Positions 9,270-56,445 of a stretch of DNA of 64,000 bases are shown piece after piece. Source of the DNA: a virus; the IMG/VR virus record IMGVR_UViG_3300007352_000001, positions 177,427-241,426 of that record, one strand, 5' to 3'. Each line of letters opens with the position of its first letter. The stretch's first letter is position 1. A program made the translations under genes and the position numbers. Below the pieces are notes generated by a model that was not told the origin of the DNA, did no database searches, and saw only the letters and a list, made by a program, of their open reading frames with translations.

Positions 9270-9597
9270 CGCGCAGATCGCCCAGGTTCTCGCCGCCGTG
9301 CTCGCGGCGGTGCCCAACGAGGTGAAGCCGCTCGGCGGCGACGTCGCCGACCACGATCTGCATCCGTTGATCGTCGCGGCCGTGAACGACTTTGCCGGGT
9401 ACTTGAGCACTCAACCGGACTTCCACGTTGGGGAGACTCGTCACCCTGAACCGCTCATCTTGCGCATGAAAGAGTGGATGGAGAAGCGCGAGCTGCGCGA
9501 CACTGCGTGGTCCGGCGATTGGTTCTCGGTGCTGCCGAAGCGCACGATTGAGCTGTACCTGCTCGTCGCGATGCTCCAGGCCCGCAAGCTCGCATGA
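9181..9597 (+). CDS. Hypothetical protein, 138 aa
   Basis: The chosen ATG at 9181 has GAGGAGG about 9 bases upstream and lies inside the 3' end of the helicase gene. The product is soluble, with helical segments (AQIAQVLAAVLAAVPNEV; the C-terminal RTIELYLLVAMLQARKL). Its stop overlaps the ATG of the SbcC N-half. The position between helicase and recombination ATPase suggests a replication accessory role, but no family is recognised. Confidence 0.7.
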   Translation: MSASLEEARQFRASVSAAAVLACDSTASPDAQIAQVLAAVLAAVPNEVKPLGGDVADHDLHPLIVAAVNDFAGYLSTQPDFHVGETRHPEPLILRMKEWMEKRELRDTAWSGDWFSVLPKRTIELYLLVAMLQARKLA

Positions 9598-10568
9598 TCG
9601 GCTCGGTCATACTCGAAGGATTCCAGGGACACATCAGCAGTCACCTGGAGTTCAGCCCAGGCGTCAACGTCGTTGTGGGTGAAGGCGACGTCGGCAAGAC
9701 GGCGGTGATGCGCGCAGTGCGTTGGGCGTTGGAGAACCGCCCAGCGGGGGACGGCTTTGTCTACCGCGGTTCGAGGAAGAAGCTCCCTTGTCGGGTGACG
9801 ATCAAGACAGCGCGTGGCGACACCATCATCCGTGAGCGCAAGCCGAAGAACCGCTACGTGGTGAACGAGACCGAGTTCACGACTGTCGGTCGCACCGTGC
9901 CCGACGAGGTACGTGCCGTTCTCGATCTCCAACCGATCAACGTGCAAGGCCAGTTGATCGGACAGTACTTCCTCGTGCTTGACAGCCCTGGGGAGATCTC
10001 ACGCTACCTGAGTGACCTCTACCACTTCGATGCGGCGACCGTGGCGAGCCAGCAGCTGAAGGAAGGTGCCCACCGCGCGACTCGGCAACAGCAGGATCTC
10101 GTCACCAAGCAGCACCAGCTGACGCAAACGCTCACGGCGTACGAGCCGCTCAGCGAGCTGGAGGCACCGATTGAACTGGCCGAGCAGTCGATCGCGGAGG
10201 TCGAAGAGGCGAAGCAACAGCAAGTGCGCTTGCAGACCTTGCTCAATCAGTTGGACACTGCTGAGCAGGACGCGGCGGTTGCCGCGCGCCTCGCGCAGCA
10301 GGACACGTCTCGCTTGACGCAGTACGCCACCTTGCTCGACTCCACGCTCACGCGACGCACGCAACTGGCCGAGCAGCTACAGCGGTTGCAACGCAGCCGA
10401 CAACAGGCTGCGACGCAGACAACAGCCGTCGAGCAGGCGTCGCGCAACGTCACCGAGGCCGTGATGAAGTACGAAGAGATTCTACGCCGCACTGCCACGT
10501 GTCCGACGTGCCTGCGGCCGATGTCGGAAGACGTCGTCTCGCACATGGTGCACGAGGTAGCAGCGTGA
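9594..10568 (+). CDS. SbcC/Rad50-like ATPase, N-terminal half (Walker A plus zinc hook)
   Basis: A 324-residue protein that begins at the usual SMC/RecF start, MIGSVILEGFQGHISSHLEF, with Walker A GEGDVGKTAVMRA at about residues 30-42. A long Gln/Glu/Leu-rich coiled coil (about 150-300) ends in CPTCLRPM, the zinc-hook motif where Rad50 dimers join. The chain stops there: the returning coil and the Walker B half are encoded separately at 11542-11841 and 11783-12415. In T4 the equivalent is gp46, which works with the gp47 nuclease in recombination and DNA turnover. It is coupled by overlap to the SbcD-like gene. Confidence 0.85.
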   Translation: MIGSVILEGFQGHISSHLEFSPGVNVVVGEGDVGKTAVMRAVRWALENRPAGDGFVYRGSRKKLPCRVTIKTARGDTIIRERKPKNRYVVNETEFTTVGRTVPDEVRAVLDLQPINVQGQLIGQYFLVLDSPGEISRYLSDLYHFDAATVASQQLKEGAHRATRQQQDLVTKQHQLTQTLTAYEPLSELEAPIELAEQSIAEVEEAKQQQVRLQTLLNQLDTAEQDAAVAARLAQQDTSRLTQYATLLDSTLTRRTQLAEQLQRLQRSRQQAATQTTAVEQASRNVTEAVMKYEEILRRTATCPTCLRPMSEDVVSHMVHEVAA

Positions 10569-11542
10569 AGCCCGACGGGATGTGGGACTACCTCGTCCTC
10601 ATCGGCGATCTCCATCTGCGTGCGACCGCCCCTGTCTCGCGGATCGACGACTTCGTGGAGGCGCAGGCGCAGAAGGTGCGCGCCATCGTCAACATCGTGA
10701 AGGCACGTGAGGCGATCGCGGTTTTCACTGGGGACCTCTTCGATCGGCCGGATCCGCCGTACGCGCTCGTCAACCGCTACGTGCCGATCCTCAATGAGCT
10801 GGAGAGTTGCACCAAGTACGTCGTGCCTGGCAACCATGATGTGTACGGCGGCTCGTTGGCGACGCTCGGGCGCTCAGCGCTCGGCAATCTCGTCGCCCAC
10901 CGTTCGATCAACCTGCTCGGGCCGGAGCCGATGCGCTTCCGCGGACCGAGGGGTCCAGTGGCGCTCTTCGGAACGTCGTACATGCACCCGAACTGCCCGT
11001 CTCCAGACCCCGACTGCTCGCTCAACGTCCTCGTGGCGCACGAGATGATCGTTGAGAACCAGCTGTATCGCGAACAGGAAGACTTCACCCTGGTCGATCA
11101 GATCCTCCTCGACCGGCCAGGGTGGGACATGATCGTCTGCGGGCACTACCACTACCGCTTCTTGCGCGAATCGGGGACGACGCGGATCGTGAACCCAGGC
11201 GCCGTCGTGCGTGTCAAGGCGAGCGTTGGAGACCTCGCACTGGAGCCCGCAGTGTACGGGTGGAATCTGAACACTAACGAGCTGGAGTTGATCCCGTTGC
11301 CGCATCTGCCATCGAAGCAGGTTTTCCAGCCGGTCATTGTCGACGCTGGGAAGTCGCAGGAGCCAGAGGTGCTGCAGGCGTTGATGGCGCAGTTGCAGAC
11401 GCGCAACGATCAACGTCTGAGCCTGAGTGAAGTCGCGCATCGGGTGATGGCCGAGCGTGAGACTGAGGAGCCGGTACGGGCGCGTGTCCTCGATGCGTTG
11501 GCGGACGCCGAGGCCGGCTATGGCGCGGGGAGGAAGGCGTGA
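10565..11542 (+). CDS. SbcD/Mre11-like nuclease subunit (gp47-like)
   Basis: A 325-residue calcineurin-like metallophosphoesterase. The metal-binding motifs occur in order: IGDLHLRA (DxH), TGDLFDRPD (GDxxD), PGNHDVYG (GNHD), LVAHEMI and CGHYHYRF (GHxH). This is the Mre11/SbcD nuclease signature; the partner is the SbcC-like ATPase split on either side of it. The C-terminal 90 residues are outside the phosphoesterase core and may bind the coiled coil. The GTG start overlaps the previous stop (GTGA). Confidence 0.9.
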   Translation: MKPDGMWDYLVLIGDLHLRATAPVSRIDDFVEAQAQKVRAIVNIVKAREAIAVFTGDLFDRPDPPYALVNRYVPILNELESCTKYVVPGNHDVYGGSLATLGRSALGNLVAHRSINLLGPEPMRFRGPRGPVALFGTSYMHPNCPSPDPDCSLNVLVAHEMIVENQLYREQEDFTLVDQILLDRPGWDMIVCGHYHYRFLRESGTTRIVNPGAVVRVKASVGDLALEPAVYGWNLNTNELELIPLPHLPSKQVFQPVIVDAGKSQEPEVLQALMAQLQTRNDQRLSLSEVAHRVMAERETEEPVRARVLDALADAEAGYGAGRKA

Positions 11543-11841
11543 TGGACGACATCAACACGCTGCGGGCACGTGTGGCGTCGATGCGGCAGTTGCACGCGCA
11601 GGCGCAGCAGGACGCCGCGGCGAAGACCGCGGTGGTGCACACACTCCTGGAGCAGCTGCAAACCGAGTTCGGCTGCACTAGCGTGGAAGAGGGACAGCAG
11701 CTCCTGCAGCAGCTCGATCAGAAGGCGTCGACGTTGACCACGACGCTCACGCAGCTGCTGGCGGCGGTGGAGCAACAACTGGGTGGGGTGGAACGTGCGG
11801 GAGCAAGTCACAGCGGTTCGGCGACGGTACGAGCGGCTTAG
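11542..11841 (+). CDS. Small coiled-coil protein between SbcD and SbcC C-half
   Basis: 99 residues, dense in Gln, Leu, Ala and Thr, with heptad-like spacing from about residue 10 to 85 (for example LLQQLDQKASTLTTTLTQLL). It sits where the returning coil of Rad50 would be. It may be the separate returning arm that pairs with the N-half coil. The last 59 bases overlap the next gene. The ATG follows AGGAAGG. Confidence 0.65.
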   Translation: MDDINTLRARVASMRQLHAQAQQDAAAKTAVVHTLLEQLQTEFGCTSVEEGQQLLQQLDQKASTLTTTLTQLLAAVEQQLGGVERAGASHSGSATVRAA

Positions 11842-12415
11842 TGAACGCCAGCGGCAAGTTGCCGCGGAGTTGACCACGACCGCGGCCTCGCTCGCCGCGC
11901 TGGCCGAGCAGTCGCGCGTCGAGCAACTGGCGCACGACACGGTCACGGCGATCGACATCGTCTATCGCAAGCTCGCGCTCGATCGTGTCGAGCAGCTTGT
12001 GACCATCGGCCTGCAGGCGATCTTCGAGCACGACTACGCGTTCCGTTTCCACGTCGAGCCGAAACGTGGCCAGGCCGAGACGACGATCATCATCTCGGAC
12101 CAGGGGAAGGATCTCGACCCTACGACGGAGATGGGTGGTAGCGTCGTCGATGTCGTTTCCTTGCTGTTGCGTGTCGTGCTGTGGACGCAGATGCACGAGC
12201 GCTCGGCGCCGCTTTTCTTGCTTGACGAGCCTGCCCGCATGGTGTCGGCGCAGTACCGGCCTGCCTTGGCAGCGTTCCTCCAGCGCCTCTCGAAGGAGCT
12301 GCAGGTGCAGTTCTTCATCGTGACCCACGAGCCAGCCATCGCGTCGTCGGCGGACCGCGTCTTCGAGGTCACGAAGGACGGCCAAGGGGTAAGTCATGTG
12401 GGGATTCTGCGGTGA
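11783..12415 (+). CDS. SbcC/Rad50-like ATPase, C-terminal half (signature and Walker B)
   Basis: About 210 residues. After a coiled start, the C-terminal ATPase half appears: MGGSVVDVVSLLLRVVLW in the position of the ABC signature helix, then APLFLLDEPARMVS (Walker B with catalytic Glu) and QFFIVTHEP (the switch His). Without Walker A it must associate with the 9594-10568 product to form an ATPase site. The start is uncertain: GTG at 11783 or GTG at 11795. The product closes the recombination block. Confidence 0.8.
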   Translation: MGWNVREQVTAVRRRYERLSERQRQVAAELTTTAASLAALAEQSRVEQLAHDTVTAIDIVYRKLALDRVEQLVTIGLQAIFEHDYAFRFHVEPKRGQAETTIIISDQGKDLDPTTEMGGSVVDVVSLLLRVVLWTQMHERSAPLFLLDEPARMVSAQYRPALAAFLQRLSKELQVQFFIVTHEPAIASSADRVFEVTKDGQGVSHVGILR

Positions 12416-12451: not shown

Positions 12452-13384
12452 ATGGACGGGACGGATCAGAACGCGTTGATGACGGCGCTCGCCGAGCGCA
12501 TCGACCAACTCGTATCGACCAATCCGCGTCTGCAGGCGCTCCTGACCCAGCTCGTCGAGAGCAAGCACATCTCCTCCATGCGTCGCACGTGGCTGCCGCG
12601 TCACCGTACGTTGCGACAGGCGCACGCCACCGACCCCGCGGCGTTCGGCCAGAAGGTTCTCACAGCCACGCAGACCCAGCGTGGGCTCGCCACCAAGCTG
12701 GAGAAGCAGCTGCACGACCAGATGCAGGCATCGCTCCGCGCGATCGAGACTTTGGCCTCGCAGCGCAACAAGATCCTCACCGGCTTGCCGAAGCTCACGC
12801 GCACCAAACAGACGCACGCCCGGCAACAGTCGCACGTGCTGGCGAGCCGTCAGCTTGGGATCGCGGCGAAGTTCAAGAACGATCTGCGGCAGTCCTACGT
12901 GAACGCATTCCTCGCCGGCATGCGCGCCTCGGGGCACCCCACACGCCCGACGCAAGAGGAGCTGCGCTGGGTCGACAGTGCGTGGAAGCACGAACTGCGC
13001 TACGTGAACCGGCTGGTCGGCGAGATCAGCCAAGGCACGCCGGTCGATCGGCTGCAGCATCGCATCAAGATGTACCCGCGCGTGGTACGCGCGATGTTCG
13101 ACGCCGGCCGCGTGGCTGGAGGGCACCCAGACGCGTTGATCTACTGGGAAGTCGACCACGACGCCGAACACTGCCCGGATTGTCTCTACCTGGAGTCCCT
13201 TGCACCGTTCACTGCGAAGACGTTGCCCACGACACCGCGGGCGGGGCTCTGTCGGTGCCTTGGCAACTGCAAGTGCCGGCTCGTCACGGTGCACGCGACC
13301 AATGCCGTGGTGCGCAAGCGTAACCGCGAACTACCTACACGGGAGGCGATCGTGCGGAAGATCCAATCGGCGCGGAGAGCCTGA
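12452..13384 (+). CDS. Hypothetical protein with MuF-like C-terminal cysteine motif
   Basis: A 310-residue protein: a helical, Gln/Arg-rich N-terminal 180 residues and a C-terminal DHDAEHCPDCLYLESLAPF followed by a CRCLGNCKCRLV segment. The CxxC ... CxCxxxCxC layout resembles the C-terminal motif of phage Mu F/SPP1 gp7 minor head proteins (CxxC ... NCRC), which help package DNA, but no portal or capsid gene is near. The ATG at 12452 is chosen as the first with plausible purine-rich upstream sequence; GTG starts lie upstream. Treat the head-protein idea as a suggestion. Confidence 0.6.
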   Translation: MDGTDQNALMTALAERIDQLVSTNPRLQALLTQLVESKHISSMRRTWLPRHRTLRQAHATDPAAFGQKVLTATQTQRGLATKLEKQLHDQMQASLRAIETLASQRNKILTGLPKLTRTKQTHARQQSHVLASRQLGIAAKFKNDLRQSYVNAFLAGMRASGHPTRPTQEELRWVDSAWKHELRYVNRLVGEISQGTPVDRLQHRIKMYPRVVRAMFDAGRVAGGHPDALIYWEVDHDAEHCPDCLYLESLAPFTAKTLPTTPRAGLCRCLGNCKCRLVTVHATNAVVRKRNRELPTREAIVRKIQSARRA

Positions 13385-13707
13385 TGCGGCTCGTGAACCT
13401 GACCCCGGTGGCGATCGTCATCGAAACCCCGAGTGGGCAGCGCGTGCTCGAACCGTCCGGGCGCGTCGCGCGTCTGAACACCGTGCAAGAGCCTGACGAG
13501 AGCGTCGACGGCGTCGAATGCGTCCGCACCAGGATCCGTGAGGTTCTCGGACTGCCGGAGGCGACGGTGGGCGTGGTCTACGTTGTCTCGCCACTCGTCG
13601 GACAGTTCGCCCACCGCCACGACGTCGTCTGCCCGGACACCGGCCCGACGGCCATTCGTGATGCTGACGGAAAGCTGATCGCCGTGCGGCAGATGCAGCG
13701 CTTCTGA
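13384..13707 (+). CDS. Small conserved phage/plasmid protein (NLTP motif)
   Basis: 107 residues starting MRLVNLTPVAIVIETPSG, with a middle VRTRIREVLGLPE and a following VVYVVSPLVGQFAHRHDVV. From memory, this NLTPHxI...GLP...YIVS...PDTGP layout recurs in small phage and plasmid proteins of unknown role. The start overlaps the preceding stop. Likely a beta-rich fold. Confidence 0.7.
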   Translation: MRLVNLTPVAIVIETPSGQRVLEPSGRVARLNTVQEPDESVDGVECVRTRIREVLGLPEATVGVVYVVSPLVGQFAHRHDVVCPDTGPTAIRDADGKLIAVRQMQRF

Positions 13708-13715
13708 GGGAGATC

Positions 13716-13982
13716 ATGGGGGACAAGACACGAGGGTTGTACGGCAAGTTCTACGTCGCGCGCGTGGACGAGTCCGACATGCCTGGTGGAAAGCACCAAG
13801 GATGCGACTACTTCGTGCTCGACCTCTCTCACGACCCGTACGCTGGTCCGGCGATCCAGGCGTACATCGACGCGTGCAAAGACGAGTACCCACTGCTCGC
13901 CGAGGATCTCCGCAAGAAGCACCTCGGTGAAAAACGTCCGGCGCAGGGAGTCGCCACGGACGCCGAACCGGAGGACGCATGA
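13716..13982 (+). CDS. Small conserved phage protein, 88 aa
   Basis: The core DESDMPGGKHQGCDYFVLDL with SHDPYAGPAIQAY resembles a short protein found in many phages and bacteria, with no assigned function. The ATG follows GGGAGATC. The stop overlaps the tubulin-like gene start (ATGA), so it may be co-expressed with it. Confidence 0.75.
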   Translation: MGDKTRGLYGKFYVARVDESDMPGGKHQGCDYFVLDLSHDPYAGPAIQAYIDACKDEYPLLAEDLRKKHLGEKRPAQGVATDAEPEDA

Positions 13983-15136
13983 CCAACGTCAACATCAAGC
14001 TGCCAATCCTCGACATTGAGGATTACGACATCCCGCACGAACGTGCCGGCCAGGTGAGCAACGAGATCCAAGGCTCGGTGCAGTACGCGTTCATCGGTTC
14101 CGGTCAGGGTGGTTGTCGCTTGGCGCGTGAGTTCTACCACCTCGGCTACCGCAAGACGCTCTGCTTGAACACGGCGCCGCAGGACCTGCTGCTGGTCGAC
14201 TTGCCGGATACGCAGAAGCTCCTGCTCGACATCGGTCAAGGCGGTGCCGGCAAGAACATGGAGCGTGGCGAGAAGGCCGCGGTGGCGCACCGGCAGGAGA
14301 TCTACGATCTCATGCGGCGAGTCTTCGGCAAGGTCGACCACATCATCATCTGCGCCTCGGCCGGTGGCGGCTCGGGTGGCGGGAGCGTGTTCGCGCTCAT
14401 CATGGTCGCCAAGCGGTACCTGCGTTACATCGGCTACGACGATGTCGACCAGCGCGTCGGCGTGATGGTGACGCTGCCGACGCGCGGCGAAGCCAGCTCG
14501 CCGAAGGTGGCGGTCAACGCCTACGACCTAGTGCAGCGGCTCTCTGATCTCGCCGAGGCCAAGCAGGTCACGCCGCTGATCATCATCGACAATGACAAGA
14601 TCAAGCAGCTGTACTCGGGACTGCCGGTGGCGACGTTCTGGCCGACGCTCAACAAGAACGTCGCGCAACTCTTCGACGCCTTCAATCGACTCTCGACGCA
14701 GAACTCGCCGTACACCACGTTCGATCCCGAGGACTACCGTACGATTATCACTGGCGGCGGTCACTGCATCTTCGGGCTCACGACCGTGAAGGGCATGGAC
14801 ACCGAGACGGTCGAGGAGACACGGATCTCGAACGCCCTGAAGGCCAACTTGGAGAAAACACTCCTGGCCGGAGGTTTCGATATCACCACGGCGACGCACG
14901 CGGCGTGCTGCGTGGTCGGCGGCGAGCAGATGTTCGCCCAGCAGGCCGGGCTTCAGGATGCGATCGAGTACGCGTTCGACACCCTGACGCAGATGACCGG
15001 GGAGGCGATGGTGCACCGCGGCATCTACCAATCGGAGCGTGAGCTGTTGCTCGCCTACACCATCTTGAGTGGACTCAAGCGACCTGATGAGCGGTACTTG
15101 GAGTTGAGCCGGCAGGCGCAGCGCGCATACCCATGA
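13979..15136 (+). CDS. FtsZ/tubulin-superfamily GTPase
   Basis: A 385-residue cytoskeletal GTPase. The T1 loop is FIGSGQGGCRLAREF (about residues 38-52), the tubulin signature T4 loop is ASAGGGSGGGSVFAL (about 126-140), IIIDNDKIKQLY (about 201-212) matches the FtsZ segment PNDKL, and TTFDPEDYRTII (about 246-257) matches the T7 loop, keeping both acidic residues that complete GTP hydrolysis across the subunit interface although the Asn is replaced. There is a 30-residue N-terminal extension. Known phage homologues (PhuZ, TubZ) form filaments that centre or segregate phage DNA; this one looks closer to FtsZ-like sequences. It is coupled to the 15133-15498 gene, a candidate partner. Confidence 0.85.
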   Translation: MTNVNIKLPILDIEDYDIPHERAGQVSNEIQGSVQYAFIGSGQGGCRLAREFYHLGYRKTLCLNTAPQDLLLVDLPDTQKLLLDIGQGGAGKNMERGEKAAVAHRQEIYDLMRRVFGKVDHIIICASAGGGSGGGSVFALIMVAKRYLRYIGYDDVDQRVGVMVTLPTRGEASSPKVAVNAYDLVQRLSDLAEAKQVTPLIIIDNDKIKQLYSGLPVATFWPTLNKNVAQLFDAFNRLSTQNSPYTTFDPEDYRTIITGGGHCIFGLTTVKGMDTETVEETRISNALKANLEKTLLAGGFDITTATHAACCVVGGEQMFAQQAGLQDAIEYAFDTLTQMTGEAMVHRGIYQSERELLLAYTILSGLKRPDERYLELSRQAQRAYP

Positions 15137-15498
15137 GTGACGACGACGACTTCGCACAGCTCGTGCAGAAGACCTTGGCGCCGCTGGTACAGGTGAAGGA
15201 CTTCACCATCCAGAAGCGTCGCGTCCAGGTCGTGTTCGACTTCTTGAACATGAACTCGTTCGTCGAGAAGCAGCTCGACCAAGCGTTGCGGATCTGGCAG
15301 GCACGCTACCCGGGCGCTGGTCTGTCGATCATCCCCGAGAACGAGAACTACCGCGTCCGCTACCCGTTCCACCGTGAAGAGTTCGAGACCATGGGTAAGG
15401 CGATCCTAGTCTCGGGCCAGCACGCCAGACCAGCCCCTGGCAAGGTCACTATCAACGTTGGCGAGATTCGCCGCTTAACCGACAACGAGGAGGAGTGA
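15133..15498 (+). CDS. Hypothetical protein coupled to the tubulin-like gene
   Basis: 121 residues; the start overlaps the tubulin-like stop by 4 bases. After an acidic start (MSDDDDFAQLVQKTLAPL) it reads as a small alpha/beta domain and ends acidic. Position makes it a candidate adaptor or regulator of the GTPase filament, as TubR is for TubZ, but no helix-turn-helix is visible. Family unknown. Confidence 0.7.
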   Translation: MSDDDDFAQLVQKTLAPLVQVKDFTIQKRRVQVVFDFLNMNSFVEKQLDQALRIWQARYPGAGLSIIPENENYRVRYPFHREEFETMGKAILVSGQHARPAPGKVTINVGEIRRLTDNEEE

Positions 15499-15665
15499 TG
15501 TCGGACGACGATGAGTGGGAAGACGACGACTGGGAAGACGACGATGATGACGAGTTCCTGTGCGGTGGGTGCAAACAGGATCAGCCAGCCAGCTGCCGGT
15601 GCGACGAGTGCGATCTCTGCCCAGACTGTTGTGACTGCGACGACGAAGAAGATGAGGAGTGGTGA
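15498..15665 (+). CDS. Very acidic cysteine-rich protein, 55 aa
   Basis: Starts at the TGATG overlap with the previous gene, preceded by GAGGAGGAG. About 40 percent of residues are Asp or Glu, surrounding a cysteine cluster (CGGC, CRCDEC, CPDCCDC) with nine Cys, enough for two metal ions. The charge suggests a DNA mimic or metal-binding peptide; that is inference. Confidence 0.65.
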   Translation: MSDDDEWEDDDWEDDDDDEFLCGGCKQDQPASCRCDECDLCPDCCDCDDEEDEEW

Positions 15666-15713
15666 ATAGCACGAGGCCGTGCTATGCCGCGCAACGGGTG
15701 AGGAGAGCGGACA

Positions 15714-15959
15714 GTGGTGAGGTGGTGGCGGCGAACACGGAACCGGCTCGGGCGCATCGCGCGCACGGCCGTCGAATCCCTCGTGGTCGTTTCGTCGATC
15801 GCGTTGCGCGCCTGGTTGTCGCGGCAGTGGCGCGACGCGATCGCCTACCACATCATCGTCGCCCTTGGGTATCGCGTACCGGTGTGGAACGGTGACGTCC
15901 ACGAGGAACGTGACAGTGAGCGAAGCATCCGCATCACCACAATCGAACTTCGGGACTGA
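15714..15959 (+). CDS. Small basic hypothetical protein with hydrophobic segment
   Basis: 81 residues: basic N-terminus (MVRWWRRTRNRLGRIAR), a hydrophobic stretch (ESLVVVSSIALRAWL) and a polar tail. It may lie along or in the membrane. GTG start (15714 or 15717) follows GAGGAG. The function is unknown. Confidence 0.5.
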   Translation: MVRWWRRTRNRLGRIARTAVESLVVVSSIALRAWLSRQWRDAIAYHIIVALGYRVPVWNGDVHEERDSERSIRITTIELRD

Positions 15960-15972
15960 GGGGAGTTGGGGG

Positions 15973-16710
15973 ATGGTAGAAGGGCAAGAGGTCGAGATCT
16001 ACCGGTCTATGTTGCAGCCGTTCGCGCTGCAGAAGTGCAGCGTGCAGAACCTGTACTTGGCGCCGGGTAACTCTACGCAAGGGCTCGACCGATCACTGCT
16101 CGGTGCGCTCTTCGACCGCCGCGTCCCGTTCTGGACCAACGTCAAGCGTCGTGGCCGTGACCTGTTGCTGGAGTTCGAGCGCATCTCCCTGCTCATCCGC
16201 GGCGGTTTCACTGTGCATGTGAACGAGCCCGCGTCGAAGGACGATGTGGTGCGGCTCTACTTGGGGCACACCGCGGACACCAGCCGTCCACCGCAGGCGC
16301 GAGCGCAGCGCATTGCCGTGCGCCCAAACGGCAAGATGCGGGTGACGTTGCTCTCGCCGGAAATGTACGCCGCGATCTATCGACGCTTCGGGAGTGACGT
16401 GCTCTCGCAGGCGGTCGACGTGCCCCAGCTCTACGACGACAGCCGTGAACTGGGGAAGCCGATCGGGGCGTACCTGCTCGATCAGAACAACGTCGCCGGG
16501 ATCGGCCCGCGGACCGCGGTAGAAGCGATCGTGGTGATGGCGCAGTGCGACTTGTCCACGCCTGTGCGGGAGCTGACACCAGAACAGTTTGGGACGTGCG
16601 TGTTCGGCGCACAGCTTGTGGCGATCACCGCGCTCGTCCAGCAGGTACGGAAGGGAGAGGCATACCCCTACCGCTTGCCAGCGGAGACCGAGACAGCAGA
16701 CCGGCAATGA
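15973..16710 (+). CDS. Divergent Fpg/Nei-like DNA glycosylase
   Basis: 245 residues. MVEGQEVEIYRSML aligns with the MPELPEVE or MPEGPE start of Fpg/Nei enzymes, KRRGRDLLLEF with the RRxKYLLLEL strand, IYRRFGSDVL with the RRFG region, and AYLLDQNNVAGIG with the helix-two-turn-helix LLDQxxxAGIGN. Fpg/Nei remove oxidised bases using an N-terminal Pro; here residue 2 is Val, as in NEIL3. The usual catalytic Lys is Arg, the Asn after GIG is Pro, and no C-terminal zinc finger is present. It may be an altered-specificity or inactive DNA-binding member. The ATG at 15973 follows GGGGAG. Confidence 0.65.
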   Translation: MVEGQEVEIYRSMLQPFALQKCSVQNLYLAPGNSTQGLDRSLLGALFDRRVPFWTNVKRRGRDLLLEFERISLLIRGGFTVHVNEPASKDDVVRLYLGHTADTSRPPQARAQRIAVRPNGKMRVTLLSPEMYAAIYRRFGSDVLSQAVDVPQLYDDSRELGKPIGAYLLDQNNVAGIGPRTAVEAIVVMAQCDLSTPVRELTPEQFGTCVFGAQLVAITALVQQVRKGEAYPYRLPAETETADRQ

Positions 16711-19812: not shown

Positions 19813-20760
19813 ATGAGCAACGCTGACGTGTACAAGAAGGTGACCGAGCGGGTCGTGGGCCTGCTCGAACAGGGAACGGTGCCGTGGCACAAGCCGTGGG
19901 TCGGCGGGCAGCGAGGCCTGCCCCGCAACCTGATCTCGAAGCGGCCGTACCACGGCTGCAACGTGTTCTTCCTCGCCGTGCAGCAGTACGAGTCGCCCTA
20001 CTGGCTGACCTTCCACCAGCTCAAGCAGCTCGCCGGCTGCGACCAGCCCTTCTGCAAGAAGCCGCACGAGCACGGGCTCGTGATCAAGGGCGAGAAGGGT
20101 ACCCCGATCGTGTTCTGGCGGACGCGGCAGTTCACGCAGGTCAACCAGGCGACGGGCGAGGATGAGACGGTCAACGTGCCGCTGGCGCGCATCTACACCG
20201 TCTTCAACGTCGCGCAGGTGACCGGCATCGAGGACAAGCTGCCCGATCGCGCCGCGCTGCCAGACAACGACCTCGCCCCGCTCGACGCGTGCGAGCGCAT
20301 CATCCACAACATGCCACAGCGCCCGGAGATTCGGCACCAGGAGCAGCGCGCGTACTACCGACCGCTTGCCGACTTCGTGAACCTGCCGCTCTTCGACACG
20401 TTCGAGTCGGCCGAGGCCTACTACTCGACGGCCTACCACGAGCTGGGCCACGCGACCGGTCACAAGTCGCGGTTGAACCGCGCGACGTTGAACGACCTCG
20501 TCGACTTCGGCGACACGAACTACTCGCAGGAGGAACTGGTCGCTGAGTTCACCGCGGCCTTTCTCTGCGGCATCGCCGGCATCGAGAACACGACGGTCAA
20601 CACGTCCGCGGCCTACCTGAAGGGCTGGATCAGTCGACTGCAGGCGGATCCGCAGCTGCTGACGCGCGCAGCGTCGCAGGCGCAGGCTGCCGCCGACTAC
20701 ATCTTGCACGTGCAGCCCGAGCAGGCGGTGGAGGGGGAGTCGGATGCCGTCGCGGAATAG
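19813..20760 (+). CDS. ArdC-like antirestriction protein (ssDNA-binding N-domain plus zincin domain)
   Basis: 315 residues. The N-terminal part matches the ArdC/DUF1738 domain: VTERVVGLLEQGTVPWHKPW, then a YHGCNVFFLAV segment and LVIKGEKGTPIVFWR. The C-terminal zincin motif is TAYHELGHATGHKSRL (HExxH plus the TGH/SRL continuation). ArdC proteins bind ssDNA and protect incoming DNA from restriction; the protease-like site is needed for some effects. It has its own promoter-like element and an almost leaderless start, suggesting early or strong expression. It overlaps the next gene by 17 bases. Confidence 0.85.
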   Translation: MSNADVYKKVTERVVGLLEQGTVPWHKPWVGGQRGLPRNLISKRPYHGCNVFFLAVQQYESPYWLTFHQLKQLAGCDQPFCKKPHEHGLVIKGEKGTPIVFWRTRQFTQVNQATGEDETVNVPLARIYTVFNVAQVTGIEDKLPDRAALPDNDLAPLDACERIIHNMPQRPEIRHQEQRAYYRPLADFVNLPLFDTFESAEAYYSTAYHELGHATGHKSRLNRATLNDLVDFGDTNYSQEELVAEFTAAFLCGIAGIENTTVNTSAAYLKGWISRLQADPQLLTRAASQAQAAADYILHVQPEQAVEGESDAVAE

Positions 20761-55892: not shown

Positions 55893-55966
55893 GCCCCGAT
55901 GGCTCAGTCTGGTAGAGCGGCTGACTTTGGATCAGCAGGTCGCTGGTTCAAATCCAGCTCGGGGTG
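55893..55966 (+). tRNA. tRNA-Gln (anticodon UUG)
   Basis: Acceptor GCCCCGA pairs with TCGGGGT (one G-U at position 1), D-stem GCTC/GAGC, anticodon stem GCTGA/TCAGC with loop CTTTGGA, T-arm GCTGG TTCAAAT CCAGC, discriminator G. No CCA encoded. First of five tRNA genes; UUG reads CAA and CAG. Confidence 0.9.
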
Positions 55967-55969
55967 CTT

Positions 55970-56042
55970 GGGTCGATAGCTCAAATGGGAGAGCGCCTGT
56001 TTTGCAAGCAGGGGGTTTGGGGTTCAAGTCCCCGTCGATCCA
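55970..56042 (+). tRNA. tRNA-Ala (anticodon UGC)
   Basis: Acceptor GGGTCGA/TCGATCC, D-stem GCTC/GAGC, anticodon stem CCTGT/GCAGG with loop TTTGCAA, T-arm ending CCCCG, discriminator A. No CCA encoded. Three bases after tRNA-Gln. Confidence 0.9.
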
Positions 56043-56050
56043 CTTCTCGA

Positions 56051-56123
56051 TCCCCGGTAGCTCAGATGGAAGAGCGCTCGCCTACGAAGCGACAGGTCGC
56101 TGGTTCGACTCCAGTCCGGGGAA
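56051..56123 (+). tRNA. tRNA-Arg (anticodon ACG)
   Basis: Acceptor TCCCCGG/CCGGGGA, D-stem GCTC/GAGC, anticodon loop CTACGAA, T-arm GCTGG TTCGACT CCAGT, discriminator A. One C-C mismatch at the base of the anticodon stem. The A at position 34 would need deamination to inosine by host TadA to read CGC and CGA. Confidence 0.9.
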
Positions 56124-56138
56124 CTGCACACACGATGG

Positions 56139-56213
56139 TCCCCGGTAGCTCAGCCTGGCTAGAGCATGCGCCCGATAAGCGCAGAGTCGTCGGTTCAAAT
56201 CCGACTCGGGGAA
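56139..56213 (+). tRNA. tRNA-Ile (anticodon GAU)
   Basis: Acceptor TCCCCGG/TCGGGGA (one G-U), anticodon stem TGCGC/GCGCA with loop CCGATAA, T-arm GTCGG TTCAAAT CCGAC, discriminator A. Reads AUC and AUU. Confidence 0.9.
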
Positions 56214-56217
56214 CTGA

Positions 56218-56304
56218 TGCGGAGTACCCGAGTTGGTAGCAGGGAGCGGCCTGTTAAGCCGTTGGGCGTAAGCCCCGTCGTAGGTTCGAGTCCTACCTCC
56301 GCAG
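56218..56304 (+). tRNA. Class II-shaped tRNA with anticodon GUU (Asn by anticodon)
   Basis: 87 bases. Acceptor TGCGGAG/CTCCGCA, 3-bp D-stem CCC/GGG, anticodon stem GCGGC/GCCGT with loop CTGTTAA (anticodon GTT), a 17-base variable region whose GGGC-GTAA-GCCC forms an arm (56264-56275), T-arm GTAGG TTCGAGT CCTAC, discriminator G. tRNA-Asn is normally class I (short variable loop); long arms belong to Leu, Ser and Tyr. The anticodon indicates Asn but the identity is uncertain. Confidence 0.85.
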
Positions 56305-56445
56305 CCTTTTCTCCTCCTCTGCTTTTCGTAGCTCCTGCACGCGCTTCCACAGGTGCGGGAAGCGCTGCTGTAGGTCAGGTGAGCGTTCGAGGTCCTGGAT
56401 GGCCTCGCGCACGAGGGGCGCGAGCCAGTCGCGGTCTTCAGTCAT
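56293..56445 (-). CDS. Small acidic helical protein on the opposite strand, 50 aa
   Basis: The third ATG of an ATGATGATG run (56445) has AGGAG at 6-base spacing. MTEDRDWLAPLVREAIQDLE and RFPHLWKRVQELRKAEEEKR are helical. Its stop lies inside the tRNA(GUU) gene. The only minus-strand gene between plus-strand runs here; moderate support. Confidence 0.4.
   Translation of the reverse strand: MTEDRDWLAPLVREAIQDLERSPDLQQRFPHLWKRVQELRKAEEEKRLRR

Follow-up and report, generated by a model that had tools for sequence, protein, structure and literature searches.

The gene at 13979-15136 and its neighbours

The stretch of DNA analysed here, referred to as the window, comprises 64,000 nucleotides and corresponds to positions 177427-241426 of a virus record of 241,426 bases on which 356 genes were called. 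At 13979-15136 on the plus strand lies an intact open reading frame of 385 codons with an ATG start and the sequence GGAGG ahead of it at 13970-13974. Pfam, a phylogenetic tree and an AlphaFold2 model assign its product to the tubulin/FtsZ superfamily of GTPases, and more precisely to its TubZ branch, and the gene is therefore called tubZ below. The 385-aa protein matches the Pfam families Tubulin GTPase (PF00091, E=3.9e-9, 37.5 bits against a cut-off of 33) and TubZ-like_C (PF22453, E=1.4e-7, 32 bits against a cut-off of 26), while FtsZ_C (PF12327) gave no Pfam match.

Motifs were mapped by alignment with E. coli FtsZ and their conservation was scored in 35 homologues of the phage clade described below. 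An acidic N-terminal tail, mostly predicted to be disordered (aa 1-34, 13979-14080, plus strand, as for all motifs of the gene), holds the clade motif in the form LPILDIEDYD and is followed by the T1 loop FIGSGQGGCRLA (aa 38-49, 14090-14125), where T1 reads FIGSGQGG and G40, G42, Q43, G44 and G45 are kept in every one of the 35 relatives. The same complete conservation applies to G89 and K92 of the T3 region GAGKN (aa 89-93, 14243-14257), to G130, G131, G133 and G135 of the T4 signature AGGGSGGGS (aa 128-136, 14360-14386) and to D204 and N205 of the T6 motif DNDK (aa 204-207, 14588-14599), which lies in the stretch IDNDK and whose N205 corresponds to N165 of E. coli FtsZ. In the T7 loop TTFDPED (aa 246-252, 14714-14734), the catalytic acids D249 and D252 align with D209 and D212 of E. 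coli FtsZ; D249 is kept in 35/35 relatives, and position 252 is D in 31 and E in four. The T7 Asn of E. coli FtsZ is replaced by T247, and since Asn is found at this position in none of the 35 homologues, its absence is a rule of the clade and not a decay of the window copy. An earlier note on this DNA, made from the letters alone, had described a phage-encoded tubulin/FtsZ-superfamily GTPase with T1, T4, NDK and T7-like FDPED regions, both catalytic acidic residues and a substituted T7 Asn, and this description is borne out in full by Pfam, the aligned motifs and the predicted fold.

Judged by these motifs and by the modelled fold, the protein belongs to the tubulin/FtsZ GTPase superfamily, and its family assignment is firm. 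Among close pairs of relatives, the six with a usable estimate gave dN/dS values of 0.014-0.091, synonymous sites being saturated in three further pairs, which shows that purifying selection acts on the gene in these relatives. The window gene is real, intact and conserved.

Three small reading frames accompany tubZ on the same strand. The upstream one (13716-13982, 88 aa) is ATGA-coupled to tubZ and belongs to the small phage protein family phrog_9572 (E=2e-19), with no Pfam family and no helix-turn-helix match. Downstream, an orphan frame of 121 aa (15133-15498) overlaps tubZ, and its end is in turn overlapped by a 55-aa, Asp/Cys-rich frame (15498-15665). The overlapping start of the 121-aa frame agrees with the coupling that had been noted earlier; the accompanying suggestion that it could encode a partner did not hold, as a conserved partner is ruled out by the lack of homologues in phage records, in viral contigs and near the tubZ of any relative. 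This frame has no Pfam or PHROG family and its model (pLDDT 47.5) is too poor to read, and its coupling to tubZ suggests co-expression rather than partnership.

On its other side tubZ has recombination genes of the SbcCD type nearby. The SbcC/Rad50-type gene is in two pieces (9594-12415): an N-terminal half at 9594-10568, finishing with a zinc-hook-like CPTC motif, is followed by an SbcD-like phosphoesterase (10565-11542), a 99-aa reading frame and a C-terminal SMC half (11783-12415). Further downstream, at 15973-16710, a weak H2TH match of the formamidopyrimidine-DNA glycosylase type (E=0.0003) lies under the curated cut-off.

Phylogenetic placement and distribution of the clade

A tree of 69 rows (IQ-TREE, LG+C20 PMSF, CetZ left out) recovered FtsZ as a clade of its own (99/99) that excludes the window protein, and PhuZ as another (100/100). 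TubZ and the phage proteins group together (100/97), apart from both, and within this branch a phage-only clade, supported at 96/89, unites the window protein, which belongs to its subclade III (99/98), with 35 sampled phage proteins. Bacillus phage G and its IMG/VR relative group with a plasmid TubZ, outside the phage-only clade. Given the long branches of some TubZ and PhuZ rows and the omission of CetZ, the deep branchings are less certain than the phage clade itself. A phylogeny had been proposed in the earlier note as a check, and with FtsZ, TubZ and PhuZ included it sets the window protein, whose frame is intact, outside the FtsZ and PhuZ clades. The impression of an FtsZ-like rather than PhuZ-like protein was thus right in its second half and not in its first, the tree placing the protein with TubZ. 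A captured or decayed host FtsZ is ruled out by the tree and by the absent FtsZ_C domain, and a PhuZ identity by the separate clade, by the PHROG comparison, in which the PhuZ family phrog_4733 matches at just E=0.025, and by a search of the virus record itself, which gave no PhuZ match at E 0.001.

The AlphaFold2 model, built from an alignment of 22 sequences, has a mean pLDDT of 89 and a pTM of 0.88, with values below 50 only at residues 1-24. The closest solved folds are TubZ of B. cereus (Z 38.5) and Bt TubZ (Z 37.4), followed by CetZ2 (Z 36.4), TubZ of Clostridium phage c-st (4xcq, Z 32.2) and FtsZ (Z about 31), the FtsZ structures being only 19-24% identical to the model. As TubZ and CetZ2 are about two Z units apart, the fold alone cannot choose between them; the best solved relative by sequence is a TubZ (RepX 4ei7, E=3e-15), and sequence and Pfam together favour TubZ over CetZ. 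Rankings were taken from BFVD and the PDB, which omit some families, so that a missing row was not counted as an absence.

Among 50,697 deposited phages, a tblastn search found no member of the clade, and its sole match was gp138 of Bacillus phage G (24% identity over 90%). With two further members of the clade as queries, the only matches were phage G again and one 6.7-kb faecal contig (E=0.01). A scan of viral contigs with the single tubZ sequence gave no matches, and neither did a search with the terminase, since the patterns were too specific, and this was cured by the use of alignments: a first alignment-based scan found 23 viral contigs with 30-52% identity, and a second, in IMG/VR, confirmed 321 relatives. 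The best 80 of these, all 49-53% identical, were retained, and the remaining 241 may include other TubZ types. Seven Bacillales TubZ with 23-28% identity were found among plasmids, and relatives in bacterial genomes, mainly Bacillales TubZ, also reach just 23-28%. On a Pontibacillus sp. ALD_SL1 plasmid of 898 kb (NZ_CP062975) there are three TubZ-profile matches, one of which joins phage G in the tree.

The family phrog_17961 was matched by 19 of 22 clade members, and the protein A0A6J5RW92 of an uncultured Caudovirales phage, named 'FtsZ Cell division GTPase', has a TM score of 0.84 in BFVD and 32% identity; both are probable clade members, so that clade sequences are probably already present in UniProt and PHROGs with no function assigned. 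With respect to the literature, reviews recognise two groups of phage tubulins, PhuZ and a TubZ group typified by c-st (PMC7950403), and a comparative study refers to two representatives in jumbo phages, which it ties to pseudolysogenic segregation (PMC7824862). In addition, PhuZ was reported in a survey of huge phages (PMC7162821) and unplaced tubulin/FtsZ clusters in a hot-spring virome (PMC8597652). No description of the clade as a family was found in the open-licence literature, preprints aside. The clade is widespread and abundant in IMG/VR, yet undescribed.

Terminal tails, gene neighbourhoods and the host virus

The members of subclades II and III differ from plasmid TubZ at both ends. 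The C-terminal tail of TubZ recruits a cofactor (PMC3678025) and is 48-102 aa long in most plasmid and genome TubZ (261 aa in one) and 61-62 aa for phage G. The window protein has 16 aa beyond P369, and the corresponding tail measures 2-35 aa in subclades II and III and 68-72 aa in subclade I, where one is cut by the end of its contig. The extended, adaptor-recruiting C-terminal tail that serves as a criterion of TubRZC systems is thus missing from the window protein. At the other end, subclades II and III carry an acidic N-terminal tail (net -4 over aa 1-35 in the window protein) whose motif follows the pattern [ILVF]-P-x-[ILV]-x-[ILV], as in LDIPTLDIED of subclade III, IEIPDIPIPEP of subclade II and KLPILDIED of the window protein. 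This motif occurs in 17 of 24 clade representatives dereplicated at 90%, whereas 2000 shuffles gave 0.7 on average and never more than 4, a contrast that overstates its significance because the pattern was picked post hoc and the representatives share descent; it is still notable in being conserved inside a disordered tail. Plasmid TubZ, FtsZ and PhuZ do not contain it. Compared with plasmid TubZ, subclades II and III thus show a tail exchange, the C-terminal tail being lost and an acidic N-terminal motif standing in its place. Three N-termini of subclade III are also similar, along five or six residues, to LDIPTFLR, the C-terminal peptide of FtsZ, a similarity that may be due to chance.

The neighbours of tubZ in the clade include membrane, packaging, protease or sugar-enzyme genes, and the frame directly upstream varies from a single-membrane-span protein to a portal-like protein, a sugar epimerase and others. 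In the commonest lineage, three small genes separate tubZ from the terminase (phrog_2, 1e-51) and portal (phrog_213, 4e-76) downstream of it, and subclade II has a different arrangement, with terminase, a portal-like protein and then tubZ. The 638-aa protein ahead of the subclade II tubZ is portal-like by position, with a Pfam E-value of 0.048 and no profile match to the other portal. The location of tubZ within a terminase operon in two lineages fits late expression. This packaging neighbourhood is not universal (6/19 clusters at 80% identity, 9/25 at 90%), and in the window phage terminase and portal lie about 16 kb from tubZ, past an oppositely oriented block, so that the late-operon argument is not directly transferable to it.

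The virus record encodes a T4-type major head protein (phrog_138, 5e-55), whose nearest deposited relatives are those of Listeria phage LIS04 and Bacillus phage SP-15 (36-37%) and to which the head protein of a 595-kb uncultured phage is 38% identical. It also encodes a head maturation protease, portal, DnaB helicase, DNA polymerase, single-strand binding protein and the NAD-salvage enzyme NAMPT. Of 14 large records of relatives, 8 were found to have a T4-type capsid gene; these records, like that of the window virus, may be fragments. When the major head protein was used to look for further relatives of the host phage, the contigs obtained were at most 121 kb long and lacked tubZ; they too are probably fragments. 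Nothing here points to the nucleus-like shell considered in the earlier note: the Rpb2 domain of RNA polymerase (PF00562) was not detected in the record, nor was chimallin, the chimallin search having found three of four PhuZ-bearing control phages, and the capsid is of the T4 type. Tyrosine integrase and ParA-type ATPase were likewise not found in the record or in nine relatives, which argues against a plasmid-like life. Taken together, these features suggest that the window virus is a lytic jumbo phage of the T4-like kind that does not form a nucleus.

Candidate roles in the infected cell

Proteins of this superfamily polymerise head to tail with GTP, their T7 acids acting across the interface between subunits, and TubZ forms treadmilling, GTP-dependent filaments. 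The likeliest reading, at about even odds, is that the clade forms, within the TubZ branch, a TubR-independent and GTP-dependent filament that acts on phage DNA or capsids during the lytic cycle. Considering the conserved residues and the fold, subunits would stack head to tail, with D249 and D252 in the T7 loop of one subunit completing the GTPase site of the next, and the resulting filament would, without the help of TubR, place or transport the DNA or the capsids in the cell. The acidic N-tail motif, in the form P-x-[IL]-x-[ILV], may serve docking or assembly and so take over from the C-terminal tail that plasmid TubZ has; polymerisation, lytic timing, cargo and tail role are what we infer here. 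Such a role would be analogous to the job of PhuZ, likewise a phage tubulin, but PhuZ belongs to a separate clade and to Chimalliviridae that form a nucleus, whereas the present phage is T4-like and has no detected nucleus, chimallin or Rpb2 domain.

The filament might instead serve a TubRZC-like type III partition of an extrachromosomal, pseudolysogenic genome, with an adaptor and a centromere that went unrecognised, and although we consider this rather unlikely, several comparisons speak for it. The window protein lies in the TubZ branch and shares PF22453, the T7 acids and its side of the tree with TubZ of the Bacillus plasmid TubRZC systems (RepX 4ei7; TubZ-Bt 2xka/3m89). A gene of about 100 aa and wHTH type (MarR-like in the single plasmid case tested) lies directly upstream of tubZ in plasmids and in phage G, the nearest isolate, where it is TubR-like. 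TubZ of Clostridium phage c-st, which is phage-borne and has the same fold (sequence match just E=0.15), works with TubR to partition a plasmid prophage (PMC7950403). On the other hand, the window protein is only about 20% identical to Bacillus plasmid TubZ, from which it also differs in lacking the C-terminal adaptor tail and in its acidic N-motif, and the clade, which never has the T7 Asn, resides in T4-like phages. Phage G gp138, in turn, unlike the window protein, has a 61-aa C-terminal tail and no acidic N-tail. Neither the window nor any of the clade members looked at showed a TubR-like wHTH gene beside tubZ, and a TubR profile matched none of nine virus records, this being a low-power profile that often misses real TubRs (in leave-one-out runs, known ones scored E 7e-5, 0.0012, 0.13 or 0.79, or were missed). 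Within 13200-16200 of the window no tubC-type iterated repeats were detected, the repeats present being Asp-codon repeats of low complexity and pairs attributable to chance, and a centromere could lie elsewhere. The missing adjacent or profile-matched TubR, the absence of repeats around the gene, the lost adaptor tail and the lack of integrase or ParA are each weak alone.

Interference with host division, by co-assembly or competition with host FtsZ or its partners so that the cell factory is enlarged, seems improbable. It draws on the [LVF]-[DN]-I-P-[TS] pattern shared by the subclade III N-motif and the FtsZ peptide LDIPTFLR, but this resemblance is short and post hoc, subclade II and the window copy do not share it, and FtsZ structures share little identity with the model (19-24%). 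A membrane scaffold for late steps, clustering lysis proteins or delivering capsids to a membrane site, is most improbable. It draws on the small proteins with a predicted membrane or signal segment that flank tubZ ahead of terminase and portal in the commonest lineage, but these are mainly a feature of that one lineage of near relatives (69 loci in one 80% cluster) and are absent in the window phage.

If the lytic positioning filament is taken further, the clade could represent a third class of phage tubulins besides PhuZ and TubRZC-type TubZ, namely one that is lytic-phase, TubR-independent, widespread in uncultured T4-like phages, docked to its cargo through the N-motif and, in some lineages, made with the DNA-packaging machinery; this broader proposal is tentative and falls somewhat short of an even chance. 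Of the well-studied phage tubulins, PhuZ serves the phage nucleus and TubZ segregates a plasmid prophage. Should the proposal be true, ordinary-looking lytic phages with neither role would organise the cell by means of a cytoskeleton, and a partition filament would have been re-purposed through tail exchange, ideas that the present set of sequences makes directly testable.

Elsewhere in the window, a protein of the ArdC antirestriction type is encoded at 19813-20760 (ArdcN, 5.8e-29; zincin-like metallopeptidase, 2e-35), and five tRNA genes, for Gln, Ala, Arg, Ile and Asn, are clustered at 55893-56306.
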